A stretch of DNA of 64,000 nucleotides, taken from assembly GCA_028685185.1 (NCBI GenBank), contig JAQUEK010000001.1, positions 128,338 to 192,337 of the forward strand, written 5' to 3'. The position numbers and the translations under genes are program-made. The stretch comes from Candidatus Altimarinota bacterium. Its GTDB lineage: Bacteria > Patescibacteriota > Gracilibacteria > BD1-5 > UBA2023. The first letter of the stretch is position 1. Every line of letters starts with the position of its first letter. Of this stretch, positions 56,129-60,600 are shown in pieces. The notes under the pieces were generated by a model. It was not told the origin of the DNA and made no database searches. It saw only the letters and a list, made by a program, of their open reading frames with translations.

Positions 56129-58414
56129 TTAATATCTCATTTCTGAAACCTTTGAGAAGCTTTTATCCATATCATTTACCTGTATCTTTGAATTGCTGAT
56201 TGTGTACCAGAAATTATTGAAATACAGATTCCTCAGTATAAATGAGCTTTCATACTCCCAGATCTTGCTTGCGAAGTATTCTCCGACAGTGCTTGACTGG
56301 TAGCAATAAGGGGGTACATAAGCGGAAGCCGGAGGGCAATATTCTCATCAGCCTATGATTTTCTCGCATTTAGGTGGATTTGATATCTGTGAAGCATATT
56401 TGTCGCATTCTTCCTTTCTTTTCTTCTCAAGGTCCTGTGCTTCGATATGAGTCACTCTTGCAAGCTCCTTTATTCATGAATTCTTGTCTATCTTTATAGC
56501 AACACTTCATTGGAATGCATCTGAATTCCTATATTGGTTAGATATGTCATTGGCATTCTTATATAATGTCACAGGAAGGAATAGTATATTATTTATCTTA
56601 TTCCATACAAACAATCTAGGGTTATTCAAGGCTTCAGAATAACTTCAGTTATCTCATAATGTAAGAGAATATTTCCTTAAAGGATTAGAGAAATTGGAAA
56701 CATCATATAAATCAACTTTGAGTCATGAATTCACAGTTCTTCAGTCTGAATTTGTCTTCGTATCATATCATATTCAGATGAGGTTATCTGCATCATATGG
56801 ATGCAGATAGGTCGAATATCCCGGTATTTTAAGCTCTCAAAGGATTTTAGGATTTTTCGCATCCTTAAGGTCGATGACGAATAAGGGATCTATCTGTTCG
56901 AAAGATACCAGATAGAGCTTATTTCATATGAATCTTGAACTCTGGAAATTCTCTCACTTAACTATATTTTCCAATGATGAGTAAAGATTGAGGCTTTTAT
57001 CTAATGTATAAAGGCTTATGGTCCTATCAGGCGAAAAGCTTGTTGTTATAATTCTGAACAGTCAATCGCTATTCTCATCCATCGAATATTGATTCAAAGG
57101 GCTACCAGGAATGATTGTGGAATTCGTATATTTCGCAATATCCTTCGAGATTGAAATCTTATGTATAAGTGTATTCTCTCATGAATTGAATACTGGCATA
57201 GCACATGACTGGACACATGGTGCTTTTATACATTGAATTGCAGGACATCTAAAATTATAATTCGTATAAAGATTGGAGGTAATATAAAGATTATCCAGAC
57301 TCATATAAATCTCTGAAACATCTCAGAACAATACCTTATTCTTTACAGGATTTTCCTTATTTTTAGTATCTATGATGGAAAGCGTGACTAGACTAGGATT
57401 GAAATTATATTTCTTCAAAGTGTCTATATCGGGTATGAAATATTCGACATCGCTACAAGAAACGGCTGTATTATTTGAGAGATTGTATGGTAGCATCTTT
57501 CATTTTGAAAGATAGTTTTGTGCTTTCTTATCTTGAGTATATCTTAATTCAGCCTTTTTAGGCAGTACTCTTGAAACCGAGAAATCAGTTTTGATTCTTG
57601 CATCATCCAATTGTGCTGGCATAGATCTTGTCATTGGACCATAGTAATTTACAAATGGGAAAGAGAAGTTAGAGGAAGAAAGCACATAGATATAATCCCC
57701 TATTTTTCTTGATTTCATGTAATTTCAATCAACCTGATAATATTTATCGACCTTAAGATTATTTATATCGCTCAGATCATAAACTATCACTACAGTCTTA
57801 GTATTTCTTGCAAACCAATAATATCAATAATTCAGATTATCATATTTCGTTGCGATTATCGAAAGCTTATTTCAGCTTATATAAAGTTCAGGGTTTATAT
57901 AATAATCAGGAAGCTTTATGGTCTTCAAAACTTTCAATTGCTGGTAAGGAAAAGCTTTCACGATGTAAACCTTCTTGTCTTTATTGTTGTAATAATAGAT
58001 CTTATCTCAATCATTCTTAATGATTTCAGATTCATCAACTCATGCAACCTGAATATTTGTCTGCGTGTAGTCCTTTGCGACCTCAGTAGGTGCAGCCGGA
58101 TTTCATGCTGTATCCGAAGCATTGTTTGATACTCATGTGACTCATTTATCGAACATAATGTCTCATCACACATTAGGTCAGCTGAATCATGGATATATAG
58201 ATGAATAATCCTTGATATATTTAAGCAATACGTTCTCAAGGTTTTCACAGCTTGAAAATTTCTGAAGCTTAAAATTCACGCTCAGATCCTTTACGCTCTT
58301 ATTCTCAAGATCAAGGATCTGGTTATCTGTCGGAACTGTCGCTGCGAAAGATATTGAATTCCAGAATCAGACTAAGCAAAAGATGCTCAGATATGCAAAT
58401 AATTTATTTCTCAT
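56129..58414 (-). CDS. Secreted protein with beta-propeller domain (Beta_propel family)
   Basis: The 761-residue protein has a signal peptide (MRNKLFAYLSIFCLVGF, cleavage near SFAAT). The large domain shows repeated blades with patterns such as NIQVAGVDESEIIKNDGDKIYYY, then KVFIVKAFPYQQLK-type strands, DVSNFSNPLRKYSLTLGD and FLPVTLYKN. It matches the secreted C-terminal beta-propeller family (PF09826) found in archaea and CPR bacteria. Cys-rich insertions (RCPAIQCIKAPCVQSC and CEKIIGGEYCPPA) probably form disulfides. It is likely an extracellular binding protein. A putative RlpA-like protein gene follows its upstream side in the same direction. Confidence 0.82.
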
Positions 58415-58488
58415 AAGTGATTTTATTATGAATAAAATGTTACCATTATAAACATATAAACGAAAAAATAAAGAAATGGTGACAAAAA

Positions 58489-59820
58489 TTACTGCAAAAT
58501 AAATCATCAGGAAAATATCTTGTAGAAAACACTGTAGAAATCATGTGAAAATCCTGTTATTGTTTTTGATGATAATATCTCGATATTTATGTTTTCGGAT
58601 AAATCAAAACCGACAAGGGATTCTTTAAAGAATACAACATCTCAGATTCAATAAAATGAATATTTTCTATCGCCTTGAGAGAAGATGATCTGATTAAGGT
58701 TATTTCATCATATTCTCGCTCTGTATGCTTCAAAACCTTTTGCAATATGTTCATTTTCAATCTTGAGATCGCCCAAAAATGATATATTTTCATCGAATAA
58801 TCTTTTTCCATTGAATTCATTTCTATCAAAAACATAAATGGAAAAAGTATCAGATGAGATCGAATCGCTTTCAAATCTTATCCTATATTCTCATTTCTCA
58901 TCAAGAGGAATCGAATATAAGAAATACTTATCTATGTCATTTTTCTCCAAAGTCACTTCCCTTTGTCATGGATATCTTATTATAAGCTTCAATGTTCTGT
59001 TATCGTTGAGAATTTTTCATCAGATATTTAGTGTCTCGTTTACCATATATGAATTCGGGATTTTCTGGTTCAGATTGACATTTGCCTTTGAAAAAAAATC
59101 TTCTTTTATATACGCCTTATAATAATTGCCCGGAACTTTTGAAACCTCTATGAACTCTGCTTTCTTTGTTCCTTGAAATCTTTTTGTAAGAAAATCAAAA
59201 GATGTTGTAGTCATATCCACAAGATTCGGAAATCTTGAACAGTTAGGACGGTCATTCACTTTTACAAGAAGGCTTTTTGAATTGAAAATGGTCTGTATGA
59301 AAGTGTTCAATGGAACATTGCATTTTGCCGCGGAAAAGAAATTCTGAGAATATATGTTTCAGTTTGCAGTCTTTTTTCATTCGAAGGAATCATTGTAATA
59401 CATCAATTCACCATATTTTGCATTTGATGAGACATTTCATGGTTGCTTTACGGAATCGCCAATCATGTTTTTTACCGAAATGTCGGATGTTTTGAAATCT
59501 TTGAGATATGCATTTATCATATTCATTGAATTCTTGATATTCTCTATTTGCTGATTTCAGGACTTATTATCATTTATCGAAACAAATTTTTCCAGAGCCA
59601 TGAAATAGCTGTTGATATTTGATATCTCATTGCTTATCTTAAGCTTTGAATCCTCTGATAAGGCTGGTTTTAATCTCATGTCCGATTTGATCTTCTTCAT
59701 TATCCTATTGTATGTGCTTTGAATTTTAGGGTTCTTCGATTCAAATGTCGATGCGTTGCTTGCATTTCAAGATGCTAGCAATATGCAGAAAACAGAAACC
59801 AGTGATATTACCCTTTTCAT
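58489..59820 (-). CDS. Exported protein with RlpA-like double-psi beta-barrel segment
   Basis: The 443-residue protein begins with a signal peptide (MKRVISLVSVFCILLASGNA). Residues of about 150-240 resemble an RlpA barrel: NIYSQNFFSAAKCNVPLNT, SLLVKVNDRPNCSRFPNLVDMT and FQGTKKAEFIEV. The VNDR segment is the RlpA hallmark; the exact catalytic Asp/His are less clear. RlpA proteins cleave glycan strands lacking stem peptides in peptidoglycan. An N-terminal helical region and a C-terminal beta domain are unassigned. The stop at about 58489 depends on reading the last bases of the frame; it could be a few codons longer. Confidence 0.68.
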
Positions 59821-59894
59821 TTTAGAAAATTAGATTTTAAGTGTTCGGATTATAAGGAAAAAAATAATAATTCAAAAGATTAACCTTTCAGTCA

Positions 59895-59928
59895 CAAAAA
59901 AAATCCAAGATTGGAAATCTTGGATTTT
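59895..59928 (-). terminator. Strong terminator for a - strand transcript
   Basis: AAAATCCAAGATT pairs with AATCTTGGATTTT over a three-base loop. Read on the - strand it is followed by a run of eight or nine Ts. It lies upstream of the RlpA-like gene and downstream of the structured-RNA region, which implies a - strand transcript ending here. Confidence 0.8.
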
Positions 59929-59929
59929 G

Positions 59930-60385
59930 TTTATAGAAAGCAAAAAGCCGGTCCTTTGGTAGGCCAACTTTTCAAGTTTTTGTCCCTACGGTCCAGCTAA
60001 GAAGTCATAAGACTTCGAATTTGATGCGAATCCGCAGTGGGTTCTCTCAACTCTAGAGAGAAGCTGTCATAAATGACAGTAGCTCCACTTTGGAAATATT
60101 TTTTGAAGAGTATCTTCTCCCGCCTCTTTTATGTTTTTATTTAGAGGGAGAAGAATGTTAAACTGTTATCAAATGATTAATAACACTTTACCACTCTTCT
60201 CCCATATTTTTGTGGGTCTATATTTTATTTTTGTTTATATAGAGTTTTTTATTTTTATTTTTTGAAAAAAAATTTTTGTTCGGGTTGCTGGGTGAGTTTA
60301 TCCAGTCCCTTTCGTGGAGCAATATGTTAATGATCTTTGCGGCTAATCTGTAGATTCAAAACTTTTTGGTTTGAAGTTACATAAT
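59930..60385 (-). ncRNA. Candidate long structured RNA of unidentified class
   Basis: No protein frame is open. The - strand sequence folds into several compensating helices: GAAGTC/GACTTC, CTGTCAT/ATGACAG, TTCTCTC/GAGAGAA and GTAGG/CCTAC. Long-range pairs are nested, notably GCTCCAC (60314-60320) with GTGGAGC (60082-60088) and CCGCA (about 60340) with TGCGG (about 60030). The GC-rich ends contrast with an AT-rich centre, and the transcript would end at the strong terminator at 59895-59928. I looked for and did not find the conserved cores of RNase P, tmRNA, SRP, 6S, T-box or common riboswitches. Class and promoter unknown. Confidence 0.55.
60114..60203. repeat. Mutually exclusive hairpin elements
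   Basis: CTTCTCCC occurs at 60114-60121 and 60196-60203 with its complement GGGAGAAG at 60146-60153 between them. The middle element can pair with only one flank at a time, as in RNA switches. It lies in the centre of the structured-RNA candidate. Confidence 0.5.
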
Positions 60386-60600
60386 TAACTTACACAGACA
60401 TAATAGCACATAAATCGTTTCTGCCCAAACTCCTGATATTGAACAATATATATTTTATGTTGTAATAAAAAATATATTCTATAATATGGCATACTTAAGC
60501 CATTTATATCAAACTAAAAAAATCCTTAATTTTTTTCGGAAAAACAGCTGAAAACCGCACAGATAAGCAGCGTTGTACAAAAAAATTTATCAATTTTCAT

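Follow-up and report, generated by a model that had tools for sequence, protein, structure and literature searches.

A new structured RNA family of Gracilibacteria, conserved by shape rather than sequence

Introduction

The Gracilibacteria are a class of ultra-small, largely uncultured bacteria. In the window analysed here, a 64,000-nucleotide stretch of a genome from this lineage (1.17 Mb, 8 contigs), one intergenic segment of the minus strand raises the question of whether it folds by chance, hides a divergent form of a familiar RNA, or encodes a structured RNA of a kind not yet catalogued. To our knowledge, very few large conserved bacterial RNAs of unknown function have been found, and a literature search, with most subscription journals outside its scope, returned no earlier description of this RNA.

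Results

Extent and organization of the RNA gene

A reading of the sequence alone had placed a candidate RNA at 59930-60385. A better placement of the RNA is about 59941-60393, with the following elements:

59941-60393, minus strand: whole RNA gene, ~450 nt, from the promoter-proximal 5' end to the terminator U-run; ends predicted from the −10 box and the terminator
60400-60428, minus strand: putative sigma-70-type promoter TTGGGC-N17-TATTAT, read from the sequence
60333-60393, minus strand: 5' hairpin domain P0, predicted fold only
60321-60332, minus strand: single strand J1, CATTAACATATT, family consensus about CNUUAAMAAWU
60314-60320, minus strand: 5' arm of the long-range helix P2, GCTCCAC
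60282-60309, minus strand: hairpin P3
60206-60281, minus strand: A-rich linker that includes a small hairpin and AACAAAAATAAAA-type motifs
60146-60203, minus strand: long hairpin P4
60106-60128, minus strand: hairpin P5, AAGAG/CTCTT, with a 13-nt conserved loop (L5)
60116-60120, minus strand: pseudoknot arm in L5, GGAGA
60092-60096, minus strand: pseudoknot arm in J5/2, UUUCC
60082-60088, minus strand: 3' arm of P2, GTGGAGC
60064-60079, minus strand: hairpin P6
60042-60062, minus strand: hairpin P7, predicted in the window and the closest relatives
59973-60039, minus strand: P8 domain, predicted fold, primary sequence poorly conserved
59941-59972, minus strand: terminator hairpin with the conserved loop UACCAA
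59896-59927, minus strand: second, stronger terminator downstream, read from the sequence and folded

The segment is indeed devoid of a protein frame, as had been claimed for about 450 bases of this strand: the longest sense open reading frame within the RNA has 34 codons, with TGA read as glycine. Folding of the RNA strand over 59890-60385 yielded −140.4 kcal/mol, compared to −88.1 ± 6.7 kcal/mol for dinucleotide shuffles (z = −7.8, with none of 100 shuffles as good), and the RNAs of relatives likewise fold far better than their shuffles. The strong 3' terminator proposed earlier is present, but there are two such hairpins, the RNA's own at 59941-59972 and the stronger one beyond it. A TATAAT-like box occupies the equivalent position upstream of the RNA in homologues, which also carry a similar terminator hairpin. 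The gene is probably transcribed.

Covariation supports a multi-helix core with a probable pseudoknot

Covariation among homologues was strong for P2 to P6 and for the terminator stem. The arms of P2 pair with a mean energy of −14.4 kcal/mol within their own genomes, versus −6.9 kcal/mol for arms taken from different genomes; none of 20,000 permutations reached the own-genome value, which exceeded the cross value in 35 of 35 genomes. With a pair probability of about 1.0 in the ensemble of the window, P2 confirms the long-range GCTCCAC/GTGGAGC helix of the sequence-only reading. The second nested helix proposed there, CCGCA/TGCGG, is rejected: the letters are present, but its pair probability is 0 and homologues showed nothing equivalent. 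The local hairpins number at least five (P3, P4, P5, P6 and P7), one more than the minimum of four counted before.

P3 and P5 both covary, with 0 of 20,000 permutations reaching the own value in each case, and P4 displays two-sided changes in all 19 counted pairs among 13 homologues. For P4 and P5 together in alignment A5, two-sided changes occur in 22 of 24 pairs and the covariation is 0.650, versus 0.229 after shuffling (none of 500 as high) and no more than 0.191 when partners were slid, a result somewhat favoured because A5 was fitted to a model carrying the P4/P5 structure. An apparent alternative pairing of the 3' arm of P4 with P5 was judged compositional. The terminator stem also reaches 0 of 20,000 permutations (14 sequences), and its UACCAA loop is kept in 11 of 14 close homologues. 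P6 gives the same figure in 14 sequences, although its arms were cut from predicted hairpins, which favours own pairing and makes P6 weaker than its number suggests. For some helix arms in these tests, the cutting points came from alignment and motif anchors, which were used alike for own and cross pairs. The permutation test ignores relatedness, and close relatives raise the cross values, which works against the result.

L5 contains almost invariant residues in 30 diverse sequences. The loop likely forms an H-type pseudoknot with J5/2, in which GGAGA:UUUCC in the window is replaced by GGUGA:UUACC in the sister family and by GGUGA:UCACC in others; 59 of 20,000 permutations reached the own value, a moderate level of support. 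Sister-family RNAs carry UUACCCAA twice, once in J5/2 and once in the loop of the terminator hairpin, an arrangement that might give the P5 loop a choice of two partners. The counterparts in the window read UUUCCAAA at 60090-60100 and CUACCAAA at 59955-59962.

Outside the helices, J1 is conserved 5' of P2 in the two best-sampled families and similar in others, and an A-rich linker was present in all families inspected. A 5' hairpin is found in most homologues, whereas the sequence of P0 is not conserved. Altogether, this stretch is a genuine structured RNA gene that stands alone and whose shape, rather than its sequence, is conserved.

The RNA lies outside the known families tested

No Rfam 15 covariance model matched the window above its gathering cut-off, consistent with the earlier statement that the cores of RNase P, tmRNA, SRP and common riboswitches were not found, and no Rfam match at E ≤ 0.5 was found in 13 homologous loci. 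Matches at relaxed thresholds (SSRC34, microRNAs) were judged chance. The models for GOLLD, ROOL and OLE matched neither the window nor the homologous loci, ARAGORN detected no tmRNA in the window, and the SRP domain IV motif was not seen in the RNA sequence. The same genome (G000) encodes a full-length RNase P RNA (RF00010, 163 bits, G000:C7:52031-52411) and a full-length tmRNA (RF00023, 91 bits, G000:C1:68882-69318) elsewhere. Since the helices covary beyond the permutation controls, the RNA is a new, uncatalogued structured RNA family; of the two outcomes envisaged earlier, a divergent known RNA or a new one, the results uphold the latter.

SRP RNA (RF00169) was searched for in 76 genomes of the order without a match (12 of 14 controls detected), and the M domain of Ffh (PF02978) was found in none of 341 genomes of the class (controls 14/14). 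Judged by these two components, the signal recognition particle looks absent from the class. Families of the class in which our RNA was not detected also lack the SRP protein domain, and the link between the RNA and the particle is one of co-occurrence only.

Distribution among Gracilibacteria

BLAST revealed close copies in two genera of the RNA's own family (f1); most other hits of the DNA searches matched only the A-rich linkers and were judged meaningless. Covariance model R1 (four sequences) extended the set to further genera, R2 (13 sequences) reached the sister family (f2), and R3, built from 30 sequences, covered 70 positions of the core P5-J5/2-P2'. With R3 at E ≤ 0.01, homologues were found in 88 of the 353 class genomes, comprising 14 of 27 in f1, 43 of 48 in f2, and others in f28 (10 genomes), f32 (9), f6 (5), f29 (2), f34 (2), f25 (1) and f31 (1). 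E-values are rough, coming from short-calibrated models, and the search scored few candidates per genome under strict filters, so that the counts may be lower bounds. The single R3 match in f9 is probably chance, and so is the one match outside the class, among 380 genomes of the phylum (E 0.0097), which does not look like a copy.

Homologues keep the window's order of elements, as do the sister-family copies inspected by eye. On inspection, blocks resembling CTACTTTTCGATGGCAGCC and GGACGAYGGTGAATCACGTCC...ATCACCAAAGAACGGTAGGGAG recur in copies of f6, f25, f28, f29, f31, f32 and f34, and homology of these remote families rests on the 70-nt core and inspection rather than on a full-length alignment. 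Homologues are 380-540 nt long, usually in one copy and sometimes in two close together. In the f2 genomes G035, G037, G044 and G046, a second copy lies on the contig and strand of the first, at a distance of 0.6-0.8 kb (second-copy loci of the sister family: L081 with L123, L131, L082 and L083).

R3 gave no match in many families of the class, nor in 13 of the 27 f1 genomes. Nearly all bases of one of the latter (G009) were searched again with R2 and R3 and held nothing credible, so the RNA is either absent there or diverged past recognition; the region upstream of argS in this genome, checked for a divergent copy, looks coding. Weak model matches in G014, G006, G034, G050:C18, G130, G120, G331, G129, G094, G246:C27, G341, G184, G030, G070:C45, G217, G213, G295 and G275 proved on inspection to be coding or unrelated. 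Two pattern scans of viral contigs, with patterns of the f2 and f28/f32 types only, gave 15 hits, none of them scored by R3.

Most of the f1-type carriers that have a name were deposited as Candidatus Gracilibacteria. In both f1 and f2, TGA is a sense codon, whereas the standard code seems to be in use in those carriers of f28, f29 and f6 that were checked. The RNA therefore spans several families of the class, on both sides of the change to TGA as glycine.

Genomic context

The site of the gene tends to be stable within a family, with a partner that differs between families. The RNA is commonly divergent to argS in f1 and divergent to ligA in f2; gmk is the divergent neighbour in f6, f28 and f29, several of which have ssb downstream, facing the RNA. 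A class of downstream gene conserved in the manner of riboswitches was not found, as the genes vary or face the RNA in other families. Because the neighbours change between families, there is no fixed target gene, and together with the RNA's own promoter and terminator this points to an independent gene whose RNA probably acts in trans.

In the window, 56129-59820 (minus strand) encodes two proteins: the first, of 443 aa, starts like a signal peptide and has no match in Pfam, and the second is a Beta_propel (PF09826) protein; in the relative G011, the RNA is trailed by the same pair. G012 has two copies of the RNA, and ~0.6 kb from one of them lies an IS200-type TnpA-like frame (L032 4080-4394), recognised by eye.

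Discussion

We consider it probable that the locus is an independent gene whose product, a large structured noncoding RNA, acts in trans as a housekeeping ribonucleoprotein scaffold, a role that we infer by exclusion and by analogy. Transcription would start near 60393 and stop at the hairpin near 59941. The core is closed by the long-range P2, which encloses P3, the A-rich single-stranded linkers, P4 and P5; the P5 loop probably reaches downstream into a compact H-type pseudoknot beside P2, and a second hairpin domain (P6-P8) would follow the core. We propose that P2 and the P5 pseudoknot form the rigid core of the scaffold, and that the conserved A-rich linkers and the UACCAA loop are where proteins or other RNAs make contact.

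Several other readings deserve weighing. A trans-acting regulatory RNA, namely a 6S-like polymerase binder, a base-pairing sRNA or a sponge, would also have an independent promoter and terminator, and the conserved single strands (J1, the A-rich linkers and the UACCAA loop) could pair or bind regulators; yet the paired structure is far above that of a typical sRNA, no match to 6S RNA was found, and helices are the main thing conserved, which leaves this reading unlikely. It is less likely still that a lineage-specific large RNA performs a central function for which other bacteria use different machinery, such as protein targeting in a class with no detectable signal recognition particle, or works as a ribozyme or an RNA-only assembly. 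As for a new ribozyme in particular, a multi-helix core with a pseudoknot and with loop residues that are invariant across 30 diverse sequences would suit one, but the known ribozyme families gave no match, and neither the A-rich linkers nor the variable peripheral helices point specifically to catalysis; we regard it as quite improbable.

The remaining readings fare worse. A cis-acting leader, a riboswitch or attenuator for the next gene, is suggested by the terminator preceding a gene on the RNA's strand (58489-59820), which also follows the RNA in one relative, G011. Other carriers, however, have different or convergent downstream genes, an alternative antiterminator was not seen, and the downstream gene in the window appears to have its own TTGAAT/TATAAT-like promoter, making a leader very unlikely. 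A very divergent RNase P, tmRNA or SRP RNA would fit the size range, and an order without detectable SRP RNA leaves room for the last of these; but RNase P RNA and tmRNA are both accounted for elsewhere in the genome, domain IV is not seen, and an SRP RNA would lack its Ffh partner, since the M domain is undetectable in 341 genomes. That reading is largely refuted and most improbable. A non-functional chance fold in A+T-rich intergenic DNA could explain the patchy detection in the RNA's own family, but is refuted by the covariation, with compensatory changes on both sides in 22 of the 24 pairs counted, and by the permutation tests, and we give it next to no credence.

The scaffold RNA thus favoured invites comparison with well-studied molecules. 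RNase P RNA and tmRNA have a long-range closing helix and a pseudoknot, and are of similar length to the RNA described here, which has such a helix and probably such a pseudoknot; they are nevertheless separate genes in this genome, and our RNA matches neither in sequence or structure. Bacterial SRP RNA is likewise a stand-alone housekeeping RNA gene, again without a match to ours. An RNA so old and elaborate almost certainly does a job that nobody has described, and for that reason merits functional study; with a structure supported by covariation, it can be transcribed and solved directly.

The RNA is categorically new in the sense that it lies outside every known RNA family tested; as a broad kind, it joins GOLLD, ROOL and OLE, which are also large multi-helix stand-alone bacterial RNAs from comparative genomics. 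At 380-540 nt it is smaller than ROOL, studied at 659 nt, and GOLLD, many of which exceed 800 nt (PMC12286853). No function has been described for GOLLD and ROOL, which are encoded in phages and prophages (PMC12286853), whereas our RNA keeps a stable site within families and no viral copy was found in the two pattern scans. Among large conserved bacterial RNAs of unknown function, those with recently solved structures proved unusual (PMC12286853), and the family described here adds a Gracilibacteria member to that broad kind.
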